Source: a virus
DNA: 37,440 nt
Strand: one strand, 5' to 3'
IMG/VR virus record: IMGVR_UViG_3300009008_000112
Span: 1 to 37,440 of that record
Shown: one piece after another, positions 2,934-37,440 of the stretch
Position numbering within the stretch: position 1 is the first letter of the stretch
Layout of the letters: every line of letters begins with the position of its first letter
Notes under the pieces: generated by a model
The model's database searches: none
Seen by the model: the letters and a program-made list of their open reading frames with translations, nothing else
Told to the model about the DNA's origin: nothing
Translations under genes and position numbers: made by a program

Positions 2934-3518
2934 ATGGAAAAAGTAAACGGATATTGGACAGATGAAAATGGTAACAGATGGAACGAAAATTTTTATACTA
3001 AAAAAGAAGCGGAAAAATGGTCTGAAACTTTAAAAGACTGCACGAACTGCACGGACTGCAGGTACTGCACGGACTGCACGAACTGCACGAACTGCACGAA
3101 CTGCACGGACTGCACGAACTGCACGAACTGCAGTCCGTACTGCACGGACTGCACGGGATGCACGAACTGCAGGTACTGCACGGACTGCACGAACTGCACG
3201 AACTGCACGGACTGCAGGTACTGCACGGACTGCACGGACTGCACGGACTGCAGGTACTGCACGGACTGCACGGAATTTAAAGTTAATCCGAACCGGTACG
3301 CTTTTAAAGGTATCGGTGGTAATTACGATAACACTTGTGCTTATTGGGTACCAGGTGAAAAAGAAATTCAACTCGTTTGCGGTTGTTTCCGTGGTGATCT
3401 TCAGTCATTTGAAAAAGCAGTATTAAAAAAATACCCGTCTAACCACCCGTACATGAAAGCAATTACCATTATTAAAACAATCCGTAATATGGAAAACTCC
3501 GGTGGTACAGATGCGTAG
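2934..3518 (+). CDS. Cys-triplet repeat protein (C-T-D/N repeats)
   Basis: A 194-residue protein. Residues 1-34 form an N-terminal domain rich in Trp and charged residues ([20 protein letters not shown]). Residues 35-113 hold a run with Cys at nearly every third position, in triplets such as CTN, CTD and CRY. About 80 C-terminal residues follow, containing [16 protein letters not shown] and a helix [10 protein letters not shown]. The C-terminal GCFxGxLxxFExAV pattern recalls a domain found after pentapeptide-like repeats in other phage proteins. A strict three-residue period could form a stacked helix or solenoid with aligned Cys columns, able to bind metal or form disulfides; this is inference. 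A GGAG site precedes the ATG. The function is unknown. Confidence 0.82.
3036..3273. repeat. 9- and 18-bp tandem repeat encoding Cys triplets
   Basis: The core is GACTGCACGAACTGCACG with variants carrying GGTACTGCA. It encodes the C-T-D/N/C-R-Y run. The low complexity makes the reverse strand appear open in several frames; those reading frames are not taken as genes. Confidence 0.9.
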
Positions 3519-4326: not shown

Positions 4327-4931
4327 TGAATGTTTTAGTTGCCTGCGAATTTTCCGGAACCGTTAGAGACGCATTTATACGGAAAGGTCATAACGCCGTT
4401 TCATGTGATTTATTACCAACAGAATCGGAAGGTCCGCATTATCAAGGAGACGTTTTTGATGTAATAGATTGTGGGTGGGATTTAATGATAGCTCATCCGC
4501 CTTGTACTTATCTGTCTGTAGCTGGTGCCGGTTGGTTAAATCGAAGACCTGAACGTAAAGAACTTATGAAAAAAGGTGCAAAGTTTTTCAAGAAATTATT
4601 GAACGCTGATATACCAATGGTTGCCGTTGAAAATCCTACTATTTTTCTTGCAGCTAAAGAGATAATCGGACAAAAAGAAACTCAAGTTATTGAACCTTAT
4701 TATTTCGGTGAACCTTTCAAAAAAAGAACATGTTTATGGTTGAGGAATTTACCACTTTTAGAAAAAACCAATGAAGTGGAACCAACAACATATTGGGTAA
4801 ATTCCTCAAGTAATTATAGAAACGGTGCGAAATGTTTGAACAAAGGTGTTAAAAGAGATCCGTATCAACGCGCAAAAACCTTTCAAGGCATTGCCAATGC
4901 TATGGTGGATCAATGGGGGTGCCTCTCGTGA
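4323..4931 (+). CDS. Phage cytosine-C5 methyltransferase-like protein
   Basis: A 202-residue protein with the short C5-methyltransferase-like fold seen in many phages. The SAM-binding start is MNVLVACEFSGTVRDAF. The PPC motif is AHPPCTYLSVAG with catalytic Cys61. The ENV-like motif is VAVENPT with Glu103. The C-terminus RAKTFQGIANAMVDQWG matches this phage family. It lacks a large target-recognition domain, so it is shorter than HhaI-type enzymes (about 330 residues) and its activity or specificity is uncertain; a role in protecting phage DNA from host restriction is plausible. Start at 4323 or 4326, overlapping the previous stop. AT-richer codon use than its neighbours suggests separate acquisition. 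Confidence 0.72.
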   Translation: MMNVLVACEFSGTVRDAFIRKGHNAVSCDLLPTESEGPHYQGDVFDVIDCGWDLMIAHPPCTYLSVAGAGWLNRRPERKELMKKGAKFFKKLLNADIPMVAVENPTIFLAAKEIIGQKETQVIEPYYFGEPFKKRTCLWLRNLPLLEKTNEVEPTTYWVNSSSNYRNGAKCLNKGVKRDPYQRAKTFQGIANAMVDQWGCLS

Positions 4932-7288
4932 CCGCCCTTGATGCTATGCGGAGCTTTCCGCAATGGGTTAATTATCGTCTCGTACCCAAGACTGACGGTA
5001 AAACTGATAAATTGCCCGTCAATCCGCTTACCGGTCAGGTGTGTAACGCTCATGATCCGTCGGTATGGTGCGATTACGTCACCGCTTACAATACCGGCGC
5101 CCCGGTTGCCTTCGTGTTCGCTCAATCCGACCCGTTCTTTTTTCTGGATATAGACGGTTGTCTCGAGCCGTCGGGTAACTGGAACGAACAAGCTTTATAC
5201 CTGTGTTCATTATTTCCAGGGTGCGCTGTCGAGGTGTCACAGTCCGGACGTGGTTTACACATATTCGGTATGATGCCGGCCGATCTGCAACACAGTTGTA
5301 AACGTCCTGACCTCGGACTCGAATTCTATACAACCGGTCGATTCTGTGCAATTACTGAAGCAGGCGTAACCGGAGACGCGGCAGTAATGCCAGATCCTGA
5401 GACGTACCGACAGTTCGTGTCGTATTTCTTCCCACCGTCGGCCGGTGCTCCTGCGTTGCCTGGAGCGAACGCGGCCGAATGGACAACAGAACCATGCGCG
5501 GAATATCTCGGGCCTGAATCCGACGAAGACCTGATCGAACGTATGTTACGGTCCCGCTCGGTTAAATCGATTGTCGGCGCCGGTGTGCGTTTCCGTGATT
5601 TATGGAATGCCGACGGTGACGCCCTGTCTCAAGTTTACCCGGACAATGCCGGTATTCAAGGTCGGGCGTTTGATTGGTCCGCGGCCGACGCGGCTCTCTG
5701 TTCACATCTTGCATTCTGGACCGGTAAAAACTGCGAGCGTATGGACCGTCTATGGGGTCAATCCGCACTCGGTCAGCGTGAGAAATACCATACGAGACCA
5801 CCATATCGGCGTGATACCATACTCCGAGCCGTTGCGGTTTGCTCCAAGGTTTACCGAGATCGAAAACTCATTCAGCCAGCAGACCCGGACGCACCGCCAG
5901 ACGCGGACGGTATGCGACAGGGTTTTCAATTTCTGGCGCCCCAGGATCAATCAAAGCTGTTCGTCGGTTGTGTATATGTCCGTGACGCACATCGAGTATT
6001 CGTTCCGGACGGTGGTTTATTGAAACCGGATCAATTCAAAGCGACTTACGGCGGGTATGTTTTCGCCCTGGATAATATCAATGATAAGACCACTCGTAAC
6101 GCTTATGACGCTTTTATAGAATCTCAAGCATTTACACCACCGCGGGTAAACTCGACTTGCTTCCGGCCGGAACATGCCGCGGGTGAAATCCTTCAGTCTG
6201 AGGGGCGAACTTTCGTAAATACTTATGTTCCTGTTGAGACTGAGTGTCTTTCCGGTGATCCTGCGCCATTTCTGGACCTCGTGGGTCGGTTGTTACCTGA
6301 CGACAGGGATCGTACTATTCTACTCAGTTACATGGCCGCATGCGTTCAGTATCCGGGTATTAAATTCCAATGGGCGCCGGTTCTTCAAGGCACCTTCGGA
6401 AACGGTAAATCACTATTGACTGAAATACTCTCATATTGTGTCGGTATCCGGTATACCCATAAAGTGAACCCGAAAGACCTTGATAATGTTTTTAACGCCT
6501 GGATCACTGGTAAATTGCTGATCATCATAGACGAGGTGAAAGTCAAGTCATCCGATACAGCTATTGAAACGCTTAAAAGCCTTGTCACCGACAGTCGTTT
6601 ACCAATTCAGGCTAAAGGCAGGGACCAAGAAACCGGAGATAACCGGGCTAACCTCATGTTATGCACGAATTACCGGGATGGGATAGTAAAGACACGCTCA
6701 GACCGTCGATTCTCGGTTTTCTTCACGGCTCAACAATGTGTTGATGATATCAGAGCGTCTGGCATGGGTGGAAGGTATTTCCCGAATCTCGTCGGGTGGC
6801 TCAAATCAGGCGGTTATAGCGTCGTTAACTACTATCTGAGGACATATACTATCAGTGACGAGCTTAACCCTGCAACAACGTGTGTATGGGCGCCTGAAAC
6901 CACATCGTCGGAAGAGGCTATCACGGCAAGTTACGGACCGTTCTCACAGGAAATTATCGAAGCGGTGGAATCCGGTACCCCTGGTTTCTGCGGTGGATGG
7001 GTTTCGAGCATGGCACTTGACAGACTTGTATCAAAGGTCGGTGCAAGGGTCAGCATACGTGCTCGTAAAGAACTTCTTGCGGAACTCGGGTATGTAAAGC
7101 ACCCGTCATTACCAGACGGACGTGTAACACGAATTATACCAGCAGAAAATGGACGACCGAGACTTTATGTCAAGTCAGGTCATCTATCATTAAACATTCA
7201 TGAACCCGGGGCAGTTGCGGCCGCTTTCTGTTCGGCGCAATGTTACCCCGCTATACCCGAATCACCATCGGCGCAGGCGTCCCGGTAA
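4913..7288 (+). CDS. Primase-helicase: AEP-type primase fused to DUF5906-like SF3 ATPase
   Basis: A 791-residue replication initiator. The N-terminal 180 residues resemble an archaeo-eukaryotic primase: Asp79-Ile-Asp81 in FLDIDG, SGRGLHIFG with His116, and EFYTTGRFCAIT as the third motif. A linker follows. The C-terminal ATPase has Walker A GTFGNGKS (493-500), Walker B LLIIIDEV (Asp540-Glu541), KSLVTD and a TNYRDG sensor with a downstream arginine cluster, matching the phage DUF5906/NrS-1 primase-helicase type. The ATG at 4913 overlaps the methyltransferase gene by 19 bases; a GTG at 4928 overlapping by 4 bases is an alternative. It probably unwinds and primes DNA for the polymerase encoded on the other strand. 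Confidence 0.85.
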   Translation: MGVPLVTALDAMRSFPQWVNYRLVPKTDGKTDKLPVNPLTGQVCNAHDPSVWCDYVTAYNTGAPVAFVFAQSDPFFFLDIDGCLEPSGNWNEQALYLCSLFPGCAVEVSQSGRGLHIFGMMPADLQHSCKRPDLGLEFYTTGRFCAITEAGVTGDAAVMPDPETYRQFVSYFFPPSAGAPALPGANAAEWTTEPCAEYLGPESDEDLIERMLRSRSVKSIVGAGVRFRDLWNADGDALSQVYPDNAGIQGRAFDWSAADAALCSHLAFWTGKNCERMDRLWGQSALGQREKYHTRPPYRRDTILRAVAVCSKVYRDRKLIQPADPDAPPDADGMRQGFQFLAPQDQSKLFVGCVYVRDAHRVFVPDGGLLKPDQFKATYGGYVFALDNINDKTTRNAYDAFIESQAFTPPRVNSTCFRPEHAAGEILQSEGRTFVNTYVPVETECLSGDPAPFLDLVGRLLPDDRDRTILLSYMAACVQYPGIKFQWAPVLQGTFGNGKSLLTEILSYCVGIRYTHKVNPKDLDNVFNAWITGKLLIIIDEVKVKSSDTAIETLKSLVTDSRLPIQAKGRDQETGDNRANLMLCTNYRDGIVKTRSDRRFSVFFTAQQCVDDIRASGMGGRYFPNLVGWLKSGGYSVVNYYLRTYTISDELNPATTCVWAPETTSSEEAITASYGPFSQEIIEAVESGTPGFCGGWVSSMALDRLVSKVGARVSIRARKELLAELGYVKHPSLPDGRVTRIIPAENGRPRLYVKSGHLSLNIHEPGAVAAAFCSAQCYPAIPESPSAQASR

Positions 7289-7416: not shown

Positions 7417-7698
7417 TTAATTATCCCCCGTGGAACTTGGATCATTTTCTTTATTCAATTTATCCGTTAAAAACTCACCTTTACATGCATCGATTAAATC
7501 TTCTTGAAAATCATATAAATTAAATTTTATTAATCCTTCATCTAAGTTAATTATATGAATGAATTTTTTAATAAAATAAATATAATCATCTTTACATCTT
7601 AAAATCTCAGCAATCTGATCAGCAGTATATTCTTCTTTAACACCACCACGTTTTAAATTAGCATTGCCTTGATATGTTGTATTTTTAGTTGTTGCCAT
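7417..7698 (-). pseudogene. Fragment of T4-type large terminase N-terminus inside the insert
   Basis: This frame starts MATTKNTTYQGNANLKRGG and continues with an EYTADQIAEILRCKDD segment, then IYFIKKFIHIINLDEG and FNLYDFQEDL. That resembles the start of T4-like gp17, where a region of this type precedes the ATPase. It breaks at the 77-bp repeat and finishes with the tail of the ribbon-helix-helix protein (LIDACKGEFLTDKLNKEN...). No Walker motifs remain, so it cannot be a working terminase. Composition is far more AT-rich than the rest of the window. The phage has its own intact TerL at 10332. Identification is from pattern memory and should be read as probable. Confidence 0.6.
7422..7498. repeat. 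77-bp perfect direct repeat, left copy
   Basis: Identical base for base to 8232-8308, offset 810. It encodes the segment LIDACKGEFLTDKLNKEN... of the ribbon-helix-helix protein. Flanking bases differ immediately on both sides. Confidence 0.97.
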
Positions 7699-8231
7699 TT
7701 ATTTTTTTAATTTCAAATATTGTTTTTCAGCAAATTGTGAAGTTTCAGCATATCTACTATCTGTAAAATCTGAAAGAATTTTTATAATATCATCTTTATC
7801 TAATGCTTTTTTAGAATCTTTTTTTATAGATTTTAAATTTTGAATTGATATAGATAAACTATCTATTCTTGATTTTTTTCTTCTTTCATTAGCAGCACCA
7901 ATTGAAGTTACTCCACTATTCAAATTATCCCAATGTCCACCAACTGAAACTTTTTTCGGATTACTTTTATATTTCTTTGAAGTCCATTTTTTCAATTCAT
8001 TTGATAATTTTTTTATTTCCTTATCAATAGTTTTCAAAAATTGTTTTTTCTCTTTTTGAAATTTATCAGGTTTTGGTTTTACTGTTCCCATTAAAATTCC
8101 TAAAGGATCAAAATCTTTATTTCTGTAAACATTTCTTAATTCTACCGTTGATATTGATGAATGTGGTATAACACTTAATAATTTATTTAACCCACTTTCT
8201 GAACTTTTTAATAAATTAACTGTTTGATTCA
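7499..8231. other. Foreign AT-rich insert, 733 bp
   Basis: Unique DNA between the two 77-bp repeats. On the minus strand it carries a Lys-rich 177-residue frame (MNQTVNLLKSSESGLNKLL to KQYLKLKK), immediately followed by the terminase-like fragment. Both read leftward, like the interrupted gene. Without the insert and one repeat copy (810 bp) the ribbon-helix-helix gene closes in frame. No terminal inverted repeats or transposase are present. It could be a recombination product with a T4-like phage or an assembly or amplification chimera. Confidence 0.7.
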
Positions 8232-9027
8232 TATCCCCCGTGGAACTTGGATCATTTTCTTTATTCAATTTATCCGTTAAAAACTCACCTTTACATGCAT
8301 CGATTAAAAATACCCTATGTTTTTTCAACGTATCTTCACTTACCAGGGTAGCAGGTACCTTTTTATCACCAGTTTCATATTGCCACATGAAGAATGCGTC
8401 GAGTGCATCCCGTGTGATCTCCGATAAATCTAAACCTTTTGACATGCAAAAATGATAAACATCAAGTGACAGATAGAAACTAAAACGTTCAAGATTATCT
8501 GATTCAGTTTCAAGATTCATCCCGTCTAAAAGGTATTCGTTAAACGCAGGATTATTCTTGAAATAAGATTCAATGTAATAATACAATGCAATTCTGATTT
8601 CGGATGCACCATTCTGGATTACAGACATCCAATTTTTTTGTGCTTTTGATATCATAACATTAATTAAACATTTGGTTCTGTCTTTACTCAATGTCAATCG
8701 TTTCGGTTTTGGAGGTTCAGGTTTAGATTTTTTAATTTCCACGACACCGAGATACTCACAATTGAAAAACACATCAAGAGCGTGTCGGATACACGCGGAC
8801 CTATTTGGTTTTAATAAATCCAGATAAGAAACAGGTATAGTTAAGTTAAATGGTTGCACATTTCCACCTGTTCCCTGTTCGGGTGTTTCTTGTAGAATAT
8901 TCTGATACCCTATACTTTGTAAGTTACGTGTGCAATACAACTCTATAGCCTTCCTTACAATAAAGGACATGTTGTTTCTTTCTTTGAGTTTCTTTCTTTG
9001 ATCTTCTCTAATATTAAAACATGTCAT
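7699..9027 (-). CDS. Tandem ribbon-helix-helix protein fused to foreign C-terminal sequence
   Basis: The reading frame gives 442 residues, but only 1-265 belong to the original gene. These contain four similar strand-helix-helix units, at about residues 2-33 (FNIREDQRKKLKER with IVRKAIELYC), 58-89 (FNLTIPVSYLDLL with ACIRHALDVFF), 119-155 (INVMISKAQKNWM with SEIRIALYYYI) and 182-214 (FYLSLDVYHFCMS with SEITRDALDAFF). This is the ribbon-helix-helix pattern of CopG/Arc repressors, normally one unit per chain. A Lys-Pro linker follows unit 2. The original gene would have ended GDN-stop at 7417 (266 residues) without the insert. Good AGGAG site upstream of 9027. Likely a DNA-binding regulator or iteron binder. 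Confidence 0.72.
   Translation of the reverse strand: MTCFNIREDQRKKLKERNNMSFIVRKAIELYCTRNLQSIGYQNILQETPEQGTGGNVQPFNLTIPVSYLDLLKPNRSACIRHALDVFFNCEYLGVVEIKKSKPEPPKPKRLTLSKDRTKCLINVMISKAQKNWMSVIQNGASEIRIALYYYIESYFKNNPAFNEYLLDGMNLETESDNLERFSFYLSLDVYHFCMSKGLDLSEITRDALDAFFMWQYETGDKKVPATLVSEDTLKKHRVFLIDACKGEFLTDKLNKENDPSSTGDMNQTVNLLKSSESGLNKLLSVIPHSSISTVELRNVYRNKDFDPLGILMGTVKPKPDKFQKEKKQFLKTIDKEIKKLSNELKKWTSKKYKSNPKKVSVGGHWDNLNSGVTSIGAANERRKKSRIDSLSISIQNLKSIKKDSKKALDKDDIIKILSDFTDSRYAETSQFAEKQYLKLKK
8232..8308. repeat. 77-bp perfect direct repeat, right copy
   Basis: Partner of 7422-7498. It is in its original context, within the C-terminal codons of the ribbon-helix-helix gene. The insert-side neighbour creates an ATG at 8232-8230 that opens the foreign Lys-rich frame. 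Confidence 0.97.
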
Positions 9028-9060: not shown

Positions 9061-9089
9061 ACCATACATACAATTACGATAACAGTCAA
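9061..9089 (-). promoter_or_regulatory. Candidate promoter for the ribbon-helix-helix gene
   Basis: Minus strand TTGACT (9089-9084), 17-bp spacer and TATGGT (9066-9061), 33 bp upstream of the start codon at 9027. Each box is an imperfect match, but spacing is ideal. Confidence 0.45.
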
Positions 9090-9133: not shown

Positions 9134-9441
9134 CCGGTCATTGTAATTCCTCAATATATACAATATATTACATGTTTCTGTGACCGGATGACCGGAAAAA
9201 CACCATTTTTACTTTCCTACAAATCATTAACACCATGATTATTATTATTTAATACCCTCTATCCTTCTATCCTTCTATCCTTCTATCCTTCTATAATAAT
9301 ATTACACCTGTTACTGTGTGTGTCGTCAGTATAGAGATATGCCGGTCATCCGGTCATACTTCATGTAACTATCTGTATTTACTCGCTATCTTATATGACC
9401 GTTTGTATACCTCTTACCGGTCATGTTCTGGGCATCGGTCA
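9134..9441. repeat. Dispersed TGACCGG/CCGGTCA motif copies
   Basis: Copies lie at 9134-9140 (CCGGTCA), 9181-9195 (TGACCGGATGACCGG, two head-to-tail), 9342-9356 (CCGGTCATCCGGTCA, the exact inverse of the previous pair), 9417-9423 (CCGGTCA) and 9436-9441 (CGGTCA). Within each pair the copies are 8 bp apart. The two paired sites form a 15-bp inverted repeat about 145 bp apart, suitable for cooperative protein binding. Confidence 0.75.
9260..9294. repeat. 8-bp tandem repeat TATCCTTC
   Basis: Four perfect consecutive copies plus a partial, followed by TAATAATATT. The plus strand is strongly pyrimidine-rich. Confidence 0.9.
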
Positions 9442-9473
9442 TACCTTATTATATATTAATACAATTACATTAC

Positions 9474-9503
9474 AATAATAACTAATAATAACTAATAATA
9501 ACA
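9474..9503. repeat. 10-bp tandem repeat AATAATAACT
   Basis: Three consecutive copies, the last with one changed base. AT-only except one C per unit, so easily melted; consistent with an unwinding element, which is inference. Confidence 0.85.
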
Positions 9504-9645
9504 GTAAGATAGAAGATAGCGGGAAGTGACCGAACGATGCCCGATACCGGTTCTGCGTGTTAATCCTTGACAAGTAAGTACGCGGAGTGTAACGGTAATC
9601 TTGTATAAACATGTGGTTAGATACAAATTATTAAAAGGCGGATAA

Positions 9646-10149
9646 ATGCCAAGACACAAATTTCCTAAAGGTAACGAGTTTTGGAAGGCGAGAGCGTCAA
9701 CCGGTCCCGATAAAATATTTTCAACACCTCAAGCGCTTTGGGATGCGGCACAGGAGTATTTTCAATGGGTAAGAGATAACCCGATATACGAACAACGTCT
9801 TGTTACTTATCTCGGTGATTATCAAAGAGTCGATGTTCCCAAAATGCGAGCAATGACGATTTACGGCCTTTGTGGTTTTCTCGGGGTGACGAGTAAGACT
9901 TGGTATCTTTATAAAGATTATGAGGGGTATCAAGACGTTTGCGCAGCTATTGACGAGACTATCCGTCAACAGAAAATTGAGGGTGCTATGGCAAACCAAT
10001 TAAATCAACTCGTCGTTGTTCGTGAACTCGGATTGAAAGATAAAAAAGAATTATCTGGCGATCAGAACGCCCCAATATCAACCGTACGCATGAATGCCAG
10101 TGAATACGCAGCGGTAAGGGACCAAATGTTAAAAGAGGATGATTGCTAA
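9646..10149 (+). CDS. terS: Terminase small subunit (gp3-like DNA packaging protein)
   Basis: A 167-residue packaging protein that recognises phage DNA and hands it to TerL. It fits the family often annotated DNA-packaging protein gp3. The pattern begins with GNEFWKARASTGPDKIFSTP and LWDAAQEYFQWVRDNP, then KMRAMTIYGLCGFLGV as the helix-turn-helix-like part. It ends with RQQKIEGAMANQLNQLVV and RELGLKDKKEL. It is the first gene of the long rightward late block and follows the repeat-rich region, which could contain the pac site. The next small frame overlaps its stop (TAATG). Confidence 0.85.
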   Translation: MPRHKFPKGNEFWKARASTGPDKIFSTPQALWDAAQEYFQWVRDNPIYEQRLVTYLGDYQRVDVPKMRAMTIYGLCGFLGVTSKTWYLYKDYEGYQDVCAAIDETIRQQKIEGAMANQLNQLVVVRELGLKDKKELSGDQNAPISTVRMNASEYAAVRDQMLKEDDC

Positions 10150-10335
10150 TGACAATAGTCGTTCATAATATAACCAGTGATGCCTGGACGCCGGTTAACT
10201 TTCGGTGGTGAGAGTAAAATGGGTGCTGTTATTCGTGTAGCACCCGACGAAGACGTGGAATTATTGGTAAATGACGATTTAACCAGTTTAGAAAAGTTTG
10301 AACTAATTGTCGAAGGGAGTATCGTTCTACCGTGA
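10149..10335 (+). CDS. Small protein with apparent +1 frameshift between TerS and TerL
   Basis: A frame from the ATG at 10149 gives only 20 residues (MTIVVHNITSDAWTPVNFRW) before TGA. If reading moves +1 after codon 18 (TTT at 10200-10202, skipping C10203) it continues GGESKMGAVIRVAPDEDVE... to a TGA at 10335, for 61 residues in total. The local site is AAC UUU CGG: tRNA-Phe can re-pair from UUU to UUC while a CGG codon waits. The downstream part could also start at its own ATG at 10219 (38 residues). A single-base indel would look the same. Its end overlaps the TerL GTG by four bases (GTGA). Function unknown. Confidence 0.5.
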
Positions 10336-23160: not shown

Positions 23161-24989
23161 TGGCTTTTACTGCGGAATATATTTACAGAATCATGGACAG
23201 GTATTCCGGTCCTTTGGATCGAATATCCAGATCGACTGATAAATTTCGCAGTAAGGCTGCGGCCGCAGCGTCCCGGGTTGACCGACTCAGTAATCGACTT
23301 GAAAAATCAAGTCAGACAATGGCGAATTTTAGAACGGCAATCGGCGGTGCGGCCATAACCGCCGGCATGTTTCAGTTTGCGAAAACCGCCTCAACAATTG
23401 AGGACGCCATGGCAGACGTCGAACGTGTTACCGGATTAACCGGCGTTGCCCTTGAACGAATGCAAGAACGGTTACAACGCATGGGACGTGAGACGGGCAG
23501 AAGTGCCGAAGGTCTGGCGGCTATTGCGTTCGAAGGTGGTAAACTTGGTATAACAAACGATAAACTTGTCGATTTTGTGTTAATGGTCACAAAGACGGCG
23601 GCGGCTTTTGATATGGTGGATTCTGAAGCAGGTCGGGCGATAGGTTCCATTCGTGCAAAGCTCGGGTTATCCGTTCAGGACGTTAACACTCTCATGCAGC
23701 GGGTAAATTTCCTCGCTGATAATACCAGTGCGGCCGGTAATCAGATGATTGAAATTATCGAACGTACTTCAGGAACTTTCAAAACCCTGAATATTCCACC
23801 TGAAGTTACGGCCGGGTGGGCGGCTTTTGCGAATCAGGTCGAAGTTACTCCGGAACTTGCAGCGTCCGGGTTAAATATGATGATGGCTCGCATGATGAAA
23901 ATACCCGGAATGCTCGATAAAATGCTGAAAGATCCTCAGAACGCCGTTATCGATTTTCTGAAACGTTTCGAAAAGATGCCTGAAGCACAAAGAGGGGCGG
24001 CGATATTAAAAGTATTCGGCCAAGAGGCGGGGCGTTTCGTACTTAAAGCAGTCAGTAATACCAAATTGCTTGACGATGCAATGGCAAAGGGAAGGGCGGC
24101 CGAGGCTTTGGGTTCCATGGACCGAGAATTTACGAATATACTAAAAAGGAGCAGTACCGCAGGTAAACGTATCAAAGAAACTTTTATCGATATTTCTCGC
24201 ACTATAGGAGCGGTTTTCCTGCGTGTTTTCGATAAGTATTCCGCTCGAATTCAAAAAGCAACCGAATTTGTACTCAGGTTTGTAAAGACACACCCGGGAC
24301 TTGTCAAGATTGCCGGTGTTGCTGCGATCATCCTTGCAGGTCTGACAGCTATTGTTGTACCTTTAGGTATTTTGTTCAGTATCATTGCCGGCGGTCTTCC
24401 GATATTAACTGCACTCATGACCGCAGTAAGTGCCATAAGTGCACCGGTTGTAATAGCCGTTGCCGGTATTGCAGCTTTTGTCGCCTGGATAGGGTGGGCC
24501 TATGCTAAGTCGGCCGCGTTCAGGCAATCTCTTGTAAATCTTGCTGACGCTTTCAGTCCTATTGTAAACGGTGCTAAAATGATCGTATTATGGATAGGTA
24601 AAAAATTAATCAGAGACCTTGACGCGTCTCATGCTGCAATGCAATCGTGGGGTGATTTCTTCGCGGTCATTATTAATGGAGTTGCAGCACTTATCAAAGG
24701 ACTGTTAGCACCTATTGAAAGTATAAAAGAATCAATGACCATGATCGCGAATATTGATATCGGCGGAAAATTTGAAGCACTGAAAGAAAAAGTCGATTTC
24801 GGCGGCGCATGGGAATCTGTAAAATCAGGTCTCGGTTTCGGACTGGCTCGAGATAAAGCCGCTGCGAGATCCCAAGATAACAAAATGGAAATTTCCGGTC
24901 GAATCGGTGTGACAGCTTCAGGTGGTGCGAAGGTGGAAAAAGCCGATATAAATTTAAACACGGGTTATAACTTAGCGGTGGCGCACTAA
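23160..24989 (+). CDS. Tail tape measure protein
   Basis: A 609-residue tape measure that sets tail length and is ejected with DNA. The N-terminal 330 residues are helical with Ala-rich segments (TDKFRSKAAAAASRVDRL) and a TP901-type motif: IEDAMADVERVTGLTG, MGRETGRSAEGLA, FEGGKLGI. A hydrophobic region lies near residues 380-450 (VAAIILAGLTAIVVPLGILF and more), probably membrane segments. The length is short, so the tail is predicted to be short for a myovirus, if the usual length rule holds. The ATG overlaps the chaperone stop. Confidence 0.9.
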   Translation: MAFTAEYIYRIMDRYSGPLDRISRSTDKFRSKAAAAASRVDRLSNRLEKSSQTMANFRTAIGGAAITAGMFQFAKTASTIEDAMADVERVTGLTGVALERMQERLQRMGRETGRSAEGLAAIAFEGGKLGITNDKLVDFVLMVTKTAAAFDMVDSEAGRAIGSIRAKLGLSVQDVNTLMQRVNFLADNTSAAGNQMIEIIERTSGTFKTLNIPPEVTAGWAAFANQVEVTPELAASGLNMMMARMMKIPGMLDKMLKDPQNAVIDFLKRFEKMPEAQRGAAILKVFGQEAGRFVLKAVSNTKLLDDAMAKGRAAEALGSMDREFTNILKRSSTAGKRIKETFIDISRTIGAVFLRVFDKYSARIQKATEFVLRFVKTHPGLVKIAGVAAIILAGLTAIVVPLGILFSIIAGGLPILTALMTAVSAISAPVVIAVAGIAAFVAWIGWAYAKSAAFRQSLVNLADAFSPIVNGAKMIVLWIGKKLIRDLDASHAAMQSWGDFFAVIINGVAALIKGLLAPIESIKESMTMIANIDIGGKFEALKEKVDFGGAWESVKSGLGFGLARDKAAARSQDNKMEISGRIGVTASGGAKVEKADINLNTGYNLAVAH

Positions 24990-26284: not shown

Positions 26285-27414
26285 GTTTTGAAATCCGCAT
26301 AAACGGTGAGCCGTTCTTTTTATGGAAATCTGCAAGTGTTCAGAGATCCATTGACAGCAACGCCGGTGCTTTTAGATTCAGTAATTCGAGCACTGTCCCG
26401 TTATCTGATTACCCGGTAAAAACAGGTGATTTTGTCGAGATCATTATTGAAGGTGTTCGGAAGATTGCCGGATTTGTCGACGAGATCACAGGAAGTCAGG
26501 ATGAGAGCAGTCACACTGTTGAGGTTTCAGGAAGGGACAATATAGCCGATTTAATCGATTCGAGTATACCGGACGGTGCAAAAGTAACCGAAGGTCCGGT
26601 ATCTCTCAAAGCGTTGATCGAAAAAGTTATATCGACATTGGGTGCGAGTATAGAAGTATCAGTCAATGTCGACGATTTGTCGGAATTTTCTTCCCAGGAT
26701 CTACAGGCTGCGGGTTCCGGTGAGACCTGTATGGCATATCTTGTATCTTTCGCTAGGAAAAGACAAGTTTATCTCGTTCCGGATGGTGCCGGCGGTCTAT
26801 CTATTTTCCGTCCTGATAAATCGATACAATCTGTTACCCCTTTGTTGCATCAAATCAATGGTGTTTCAAACAATGTGACGACATATTCGTTCAGGCAGTC
26901 TCAACAGAACAGATTTAATCAGTATCTTTGCCGTTCTCAAGATAATTTCGGTTTTGACGCCTTCGGGGATTATTCCGGAGACGGAACAGATCGTAAAAAT
27001 TCCGTTACTGATTCGCAAATACGCTCGAGTCGATACCTTGAACTTCAGGCTGAAGAGTCAATGAACGATCAAGAATGCGCCGAACGAGCCGCGGAAGAAT
27101 CGAATATACGTCGAGCATTTGGAATCGAATATACGGCGTCTGTACCGGGGGTTTCTCAATCTGACGGTACCTTGTGGGACTTCGGGCAATTCGTCGATGC
27201 TATAGACGATTACGCTAATATTTCCGGTAAATTCTTGATAAAATCAGTTGAGTATGCAATTGATACTCGAGGGGGTACACGAACGCAAATTGTATGTGTA
27301 CCGCCGGATGCTTATCAAGTAACGGCTGAACCCTCAAAAGAAAATAAACGGAGCGCAAAAACAGGGGAAGGTTTTCAGAGAACCGAACCGCAGGAGCAAC
27401 CGAACATAAGATGA
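26281..27414 (+). CDS. Baseplate hub protein, Mu gpP-like (gp27/gpD type)
   Basis: A 377-residue hub protein. Start SFEIRINGEPFFLWKSASV, then GAFRFSNSS and FVEIIIEGVRKIAGFVDEI, SHTVEVSGRDNIADLIDSS, and TLWDFGQFVDAIDDY with VEYAIDTRGGTRT near the end. This is the Mu gp44 pattern. It overlaps the gpN-like gene by 4 bases and the spike gene by 4 bases. Confidence 0.83.
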   Translation: MSFEIRINGEPFFLWKSASVQRSIDSNAGAFRFSNSSTVPLSDYPVKTGDFVEIIIEGVRKIAGFVDEITGSQDESSHTVEVSGRDNIADLIDSSIPDGAKVTEGPVSLKALIEKVISTLGASIEVSVNVDDLSEFSSQDLQAAGSGETCMAYLVSFARKRQVYLVPDGAGGLSIFRPDKSIQSVTPLLHQINGVSNNVTTYSFRQSQQNRFNQYLCRSQDNFGFDAFGDYSGDGTDRKNSVTDSQIRSSRYLELQAEESMNDQECAERAAEESNIRRAFGIEYTASVPGVSQSDGTLWDFGQFVDAIDDYANISGKFLIKSVEYAIDTRGGTRTQIVCVPPDAYQVTAEPSKENKRSAKTGEGFQRTEPQEQPNIR

Positions 27415-37282: not shown

Positions 37283-37440
37283 TTATGCAGGGTTAAGAAT
37301 TGCCGGATTCGGCGGGATTACGCCCGGAGCAGGTGCAGGGGCCGCAGGTGCAGGGGCCGCAGGTGCAGGGGCCGCAGGTGCAGGTGCCGCAGGAGCGGGT
37401 GCCGCAGGTGCAGGTGCCGCAGGTGCAGGTGCCGCAGGAG
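37283..37440 (-). CDS. DUF2815-like ssDNA-binding protein, 3' part of gene (continues from 1)
   Basis: C-terminal tail of the split SSB gene. It consists of PAPAA repeats ending in PGVIPPNPAILNPA and a TAA at 37285-37283. Joining 37440 directly to position 1 gives 859 bases, one more than a multiple of three. Inserting CG at the junction restores both the repeat pattern (variant unit ending GGAGCGGGTGCC) and the frame, giving 286 residues if no further repeat units are missing. The tail is uncharged, unlike the acidic C-terminal tips usual in bacterial and T7 SSBs. The gene is followed by a strong hairpin and then the 50-residue gene. That this end belongs to the SSB gene is inferred from frame and repeat phase. 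Confidence 0.6.
   Translation of the reverse strand, partial: PAAPAPAAPAPAAPAPAAPAPAAPAPAAPAPAAPAPAPGVIPPNPAILNPA
37329..37440. repeat. 15-bp tandem repeat encoding PAPAA, right window end
   Basis: About seven units of the same array, with three sequence variants: GGGGCC, GGTGCC and GGAGCGGGTGCC types. In plus-strand order the variants run three G, one T, one A, two T, then a truncated A unit. Part of this order recurs at 2205-2313 in another gene. Confidence 0.95.

Follow-up and report, generated by a model that had tools for sequence, protein, structure and literature searches.

This locus raises the question of how one phage protein chain comes to hold four apparent ribbon-helix-helix (RHH) units, when RHH proteins are textbook homodimers, and what such a chain might do between the genes for replication and packaging. 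The window, meaning the whole stretch of DNA analyzed here (37,440 bp), is the complete IMG/VR virus record IMGVR_UViG_3300009008_000112. Its sequence identifies it as the genome of a contractile-tailed phage infecting bacteria, and portal, capsid, and tail sheath genes are also encoded in it. An NrS-1-type primase gene was assigned at 4913-7288 from profile and PHROGs matches; by primase, the closest isolates are Shewanella phage SppYZU01 and Acinetobacter phage Scuro, with Edwardsiella phage MSW-3 more distant. On the plus strand, the terminase small subunit gene (terS, 9646-10149; PF16677, E 1.1e-20; phrog_606, E 3.1e-45) is the first gene of a divergent packaging operon, and the large terminase gene begins at 10332. 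The four-unit RHH gene lies on the minus strand between the replication and packaging genes, next to primase and terminase.

We first had to establish the extent of the gene. As sequenced, it is a minus-strand ORF of 442 aa (7699-9027, with its start at 9027), and residues 1-239 (8309-9027) hold all four units. The sequence-only reading had described a 266-residue four-unit chain; the four units were found, but the length did not hold, as the ORF is longer and interrupted at its 3' end, and 266 residues is the gene length only if an insert is removed. This insert is a 733-bp foreign segment (7499-8231, minus strand) lying between perfect 77-bp direct repeats. The native part of the gene (8232-9027, minus strand, residues 1-265 up to the insert) shares 61-64% identity with an intact homologue on two related contigs (L003/L004), in which an uninterrupted gene encodes 274 aa. 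Repeat copy 1 (8232-8308) forms the native 3' part of the RHH gene, and the intact relative aligns through it, ending KKHREFLTEACKGNFLPD... at the same place, which marks the repeat as native; the insert and one of the two repeat copies are therefore additional. Copy 2 (7422-7498) lies in a minus-strand segment (7417-7498) that also carries the probable native stop codon, directly after GDN.

The content of the insert is T4-like. It encodes a 177-aa frame weakly resembling virion protein phrog_16530 (E 0.0045) and the N-terminal 66 aa of a large terminase of T4-like type (phrog_5989, E 2.6e-15), the latter fragment having matches in 1878 phage records; a search for a near-identical T4-like source found none. 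As the weak phrog_16530 alignment extends into the 77-bp repeat, we considered whether the repeat belonged to the T4-like fragment and rejected this, since the intact RHH homologue encodes the matching tail. The 442-aa ORF was likewise rejected as a single natural protein, because the gene in its relatives stops after 274 aa and the additional sequence is that of a T4-like phage.

A repeat length of 77 bp is a common assembler word length. We consider the insert a probable chimera of assembly or amplification: the repeat is exactly of this length, the insert (GC 0.23) consists of parts of two T4-like genes that break off where the repeat begins, and the relatives lack it. That the 442-aa fusion is real, made of DNA captured from a co-infecting T4-like phage, seems rather unlikely to us against these points, even though the reading frame stays open across the copy-1 join and a repeat-flanked insert could conceivably arise in vivo by template switching. 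This uncertainty concerns the insert only. Users of the public contig should check the reads before annotating the 442-aa ORF as a genuine fusion protein.

We next examined the four units. They follow a beta-alpha-alpha pattern, and the helix motifs quoted earlier (VRKAIELYC, IRHALDVFF, IRIALYYYI, and TRDALDAFF) are all present. In a full-length AlphaFold model built from a two-sequence alignment, which has very low confidence (pLDDT 36.7), a helix-helix pattern is repeated four times, and strands are assigned to units 3 and 4. Unit 1 (8926-9027, minus strand, residues 1-34) has helices at 8-15 and 20-33 in this weak model, and unit 2 (8749-8856, minus strand, residues 58-93) at 66-71 and 76-92. 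A Lys/Pro-rich linker (8674-8748, minus strand, residues 94-118, EIKKSKPEPPKPKR...), recognized from the sequence, separates them from unit 3 (8560-8673, minus strand; strand 119-127, helices 128-136 and 140-156) and unit 4 (8371-8493, minus strand; strand 179-187, helices 188-196 and 201-219), both taken from AlphaFold modeling.

Units 3-4 were then modeled separately (8350-8709). The six-row alignment took in each half of the protein from the window and from L004, plus two proteins from another related contig, L020, with some of the alignments uncertain. This model was confident (pLDDT 81.0, pTM 0.75) and showed strand-helix-helix twice (E13-21 H22-30 H34-50 E73-81 H82-90 H95-113), as expected for an RHH pseudo-dimer; the strand pairing is taken from the DSSP assignment and the match to TraY rather than from coordinates. 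In a fold search against the PDB, F-plasmid TraY ranked at the top with a VIA Z of 7.6-7.9, a range (below 8) that can reflect a common arrangement. Lower matches included a CRISPR-related protein (Z 5.3), VirC2 (5.0), DndE (4.8), and AvtR (4.5), the last three within 4.3-5.0. Against models of viral proteins, several named matches of units 3-4 were RHH proteins of archaeal viruses. As the Foldseek E values against the PDB were above 0.05, the case for an RHH fold rests jointly on the model confidence, the topology, and the identity of the top matches. On this model, units 3-4 would form a functional dimer internally, within one chain.

Sequence searches were less informative. Pfam gave no RHH family match for the whole protein or the separate units, and PHROGs, PDB-sequence, and annotated-phage searches gave no usable match for either. 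NCBIfam aCcr1, an archaeal cell-cycle regulator that we take to be an RHH protein, matched weakly (E 5.5e-4 for the whole protein, and 1.1e-3), under its 60-bit cut-off, and the match falls in unit 4 at residues 193-209. The lack of a curated Pfam or PHROGs match and the very low confidence of the full-length model would suit a chance repetition of helices in some fold other than RHH. Given the confident half model, with its strand-helix-helix topology repeated, and TraY at the head of the PDB list, we regard that explanation as highly improbable.

The RHH assignment of units 1-2 comes through homology to the modeled half. Profiles of units 1-2 and units 3-4 aligned in hhalign with a probability of 92 (E 6.5e-7, 91 columns) and a score of 41.6, compared with 20.5 for the best of 200 column shuffles and 11.7 for the reversed profile. 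With two sequences per half the signal was weaker, at 19.9 versus a maximum of 15.8 in 60 shuffles. By these alignments, units 1-2 are a diverged copy of units 3-4.

To place the protein in an evolutionary context, we looked for relatives. A scan of genome contigs found none, and scans of viral contigs found homologues only in L003/L004, where the homologue also has four units, and in L020. The L020 locus carries two short minus-strand genes, encoding 104 aa and then ~102 aa, that overlap as ATGA, the TGA of the first lying over the ATG of the second; this boundary matches the position of the Lys/Pro-rich linker. The 104-aa protein (L020:2616-2927) has two units and is homologous to units 1-2 (E 3e-13), unit for unit. 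The ~102-aa protein reads as two units, with no significant sequence similarity to units 3-4. Four units arranged as 2+2 in L020 and as four in one chain in its relative are what a fusion of two pseudo-dimers predicts. The earlier suggestion that the diverged units make up two fused pseudo-dimers is thus backed by the units 3-4 model, the TraY match, the internal duplication, and the L020 split. The split and fused relatives provide a natural fusion series in which the effect of covalent linkage on cooperativity and site spacing could be followed.

Among other related phages, the genes at the same position in Scuro, MSW-3, and SppYZU01 were rejected as homologues, as they showed no similarity and no RHH pattern. 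By eye, candidates were also seen in L022 (130 aa, two units) and L021 (86 aa, one unit).

How new is a four-unit chain? VirC2 is known to carry two tandem RHH units per chain, and MetJ reads tandem 8-bp boxes. MetJ, Arc, and CopG have the RHH fold in common with the window protein, and the MetJ boxes resemble the 8-bp spacing of TGACCGGA; however, these proteins have one unit per chain and act as homodimers on symmetric sites, whereas here the units are diverged and the sites non-palindromic. In TraY, both RHH motifs lie in one polypeptide that forms a monomeric pseudo-dimer, and three molecules line up in a train over direct and inverted sites (PMC12117103). As a single-chain pseudo-dimer, F-plasmid TraY (PDB 9f0x-9f12) is the best structural match, but it is a plasmid relaxosome protein with two units rather than four. 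DndE chains likewise contain two RHH units in tandem (PMC10853773). The fold matches to DndE (PDB 4lrv, 5wtu) and VirC2 (PDB 2rh3) have Z of about 4-5, and these two-unit proteins belong to different contexts, DNA modification and T-DNA transfer, respectively. A sequence search of solved structures, made with a two-sequence profile that would miss distant relatives, found no similarity to TraY or DndE. The family context of these proteins (oriT with tra genes, or dnd genes) is also lacking, the gene lying instead in a phage primase/terminase locus. AvtR of Acidianus filamentous virus 6 (PDB 4hv0) is alike in being a viral single-chain tandem-RHH regulator with several genomic sites; it has two units and comes from an archaeal virus, and its likeness to the four-unit protein is structural. 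The window protein and its L003/L004 homologue, with four units, depart from the exactly two units of the TraY/AvtR/DndE type.

In line with the earlier judgment that no four-unit family has been described, a literature search, mainly of open-access papers, found no described four-unit RHH protein. Strict uniqueness was not upheld. In the archaeal virus STSV1 (L107, NC_006268), ORF23 (270 aa, 23299-24111) and ORF26 (326 aa, 26354-27334), both annotated as hypothetical, were each read as four tandem RHH-like units. Pfam RHH_1 falls on one unit of each (below the cut-off in ORF26) and CopG_antitoxin near another unit of ORF23, the remaining units being assigned by eye. The viral fold matches include proteins of the lengths of ORF23 and ORF26, probably those ORFs. 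Unannotated four-unit RHH proteins thus appear, from sequence patterns, to exist in STSV1. They share the four-unit chain with the window protein but belong to an archaeal virus, and the likeness rests on the unit pattern. Since two-unit chains are known and four-unit readings exist in STSV1, the window protein extends a known design rather than opening a new category.

We then analyzed the region between the RHH gene and terS. The paired TGACCGG sites noted earlier are present, at 9181/9189 and 9342/9350. They form part of a TGACCG(G) array spanning 9134-9533, with CGGTCA at 9135, 9343, 9351, 9418, and 9436 and TGACCG at 9181, 9189, 9396, and 9527; in each of two tandem pairs, the sites are 8 bp apart. 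All five window copies of ATGACCGG fall at 9134-9424, between the two genes. The sites are non-palindromic, which is what a ribbon built from two unlike strands would predict.

The array follows the gene across phages. Among over-represented words, ATGACCG ranks first or second in the divergent regions of the window, the L004/L008 phage, and L020, in similar positions and with closely spaced pairs. The raw Poisson log10P values, about -11, -11, and -7, respectively, belong to words chosen as the best of many thousand and must be corrected by several orders of magnitude. The first two values easily withstand this, and L020 is an independent repeat, as the motif had already been named beforehand. 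ATGACCG was absent (0/5) from this region in L021, L022, MSW-3, SppYZU01, and Scuro, five related phages that carry different genes in this slot. By sequence, therefore, the adjacent repeat region stands up as the likely target that had been suggested for the protein, being conserved with the gene and missing from related phages without it.

It could still be that another phage or host factor binds the TGACCGG array and that the RHH protein works on other targets, such as host promoters. Such host targets are conceivable, and binding of the array by the protein is inferred. Nevertheless, the co-occurrence of array and gene, the absence of the array from five related phages with other slot genes, and the confinement of ATGACCGG in the window to the array make this quite improbable.

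Promoter-like elements flank the array. A putative promoter for the RHH gene (TTGACT-N17-TATGGT, 9061-9089, minus strand) lies 33 nt from the start codon, as does TTGACA-N17-TAATAT in L004. A putative promoter for the terminase operon (TTGACA-N17-TAACGG, 9567-9595, plus strand) is conserved also in L004, L020, and L021, making four phages. A consensus scan of the region gave 12 matches versus 12.8 by chance, so that the support for the putative promoters comes from conservation alone. Rather than covering the putative -35 elements, the nearest sites are upstream of them, which makes activation, cooperative spreading, or looping likelier than simple promoter blocking.

Taking together the computed units, half fold, homology, split, and array, we infer that the protein is probably a site-specific phage DNA-binding regulator of two covalently fused RHH pseudo-dimers, which would control its own gene and the packaging/structural operon. 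Units 1+2 and units 3+4 would form the two pseudo-dimers, joined by the Lys/Pro linker. Each would read one non-palindromic TGACCGG-type site through an asymmetric ribbon of two strands placed in the major groove, and the linker would let one chain occupy two neighboring sites, such as direct repeats 8 bp apart. A filled array between the RHH gene and terS could then control expression of the gene itself and of the packaging/structural operon. A chain of this kind, with its diverged pseudo-dimers fused, could recognize composite, asymmetric sites without having to self-assemble, and the array offers a ready candidate target. By analogy, AvtR is the best model for the mode of action. The genome of its virus contains eight potential sites for this tandem-RHH protein, which represses the gene encoding it and, depending on concentration, either activates or represses the next gene (PMC5569661).

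The position of the sites upstream of, not over, the putative promoters could also fit an origin of replication, a partition site, or a start site for packaging, with the four-unit protein as a structural DNA-binding factor. The region is AT-rich (GC 0.33 vs 0.45), as is the same junction in related phages, it is rich in short direct repeats, and it adjoins the NrS-1-type primase and terminase genes; in this reading, the protein would act as plasmid RHH proteins do on repeated sites. However, intergenic regions are AT-rich in any case, the GC skew gives no clear origin signal here, and conserved promoter-like elements face both ways out of the array. We therefore consider an origin unlikely and retain the regulator of gene and operon as the preferred reading.

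The comparison among phages also suggests a wider pattern. We tentatively propose, as a possibility that we would not yet call likely, that the junction slot is an exchangeable cassette, holding one divergent DNA-binding gene together with a private site array and swapped as a unit. The gene would be of the four-unit RHH type made by pseudo-dimer duplication, the 2+2 RHH type, a zinc-ribbon repeat type, or another. The slot proteins of MSW-3 (L018 41695-42339) and SppYZU01 (L019 236-1078) have repeated CxxC, zinc-ribbon-like motifs, and the slot gene of Scuro differs. The leading words of the divergent regions differ as well, with TCGGGCA in L021 and GGGGTA in MSW-3 and Scuro. If the proposal is correct, a slot that swaps DNA-binding genes with their site motif would equip phages that have NrS-1-type primases with a modular early/late switch.

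In L021, the divergent region (6388-7002) has six copies of TCGGGCA, compared with 2 elsewhere in 19 kb, and adjoins a 147-aa gene whose HTH matches are weak; the two are possibly another gene-plus-private-motif pair.

Repeats were also observed elsewhere in the window. A 194-aa protein (2934-3518) is encoded with ~26 copies of a 9-bp unit (array 3036-3274), giving Cys-Thr-Asn/Asp triplets (NCTDCTNC...), and the gene at the matching place in L021 (366-821) has pentapeptide-like repeats instead. Closely similar copies of 15-bp tandem units, GGTGCCGCAGGTGCA, which encode APAAP repeats, occur at 1-112, 1912-1985, 2204-2313, and 37329-37438. As these units lie in several genes and at both contig ends, the contig break is probably inside a repeat, and the genome may be circular.
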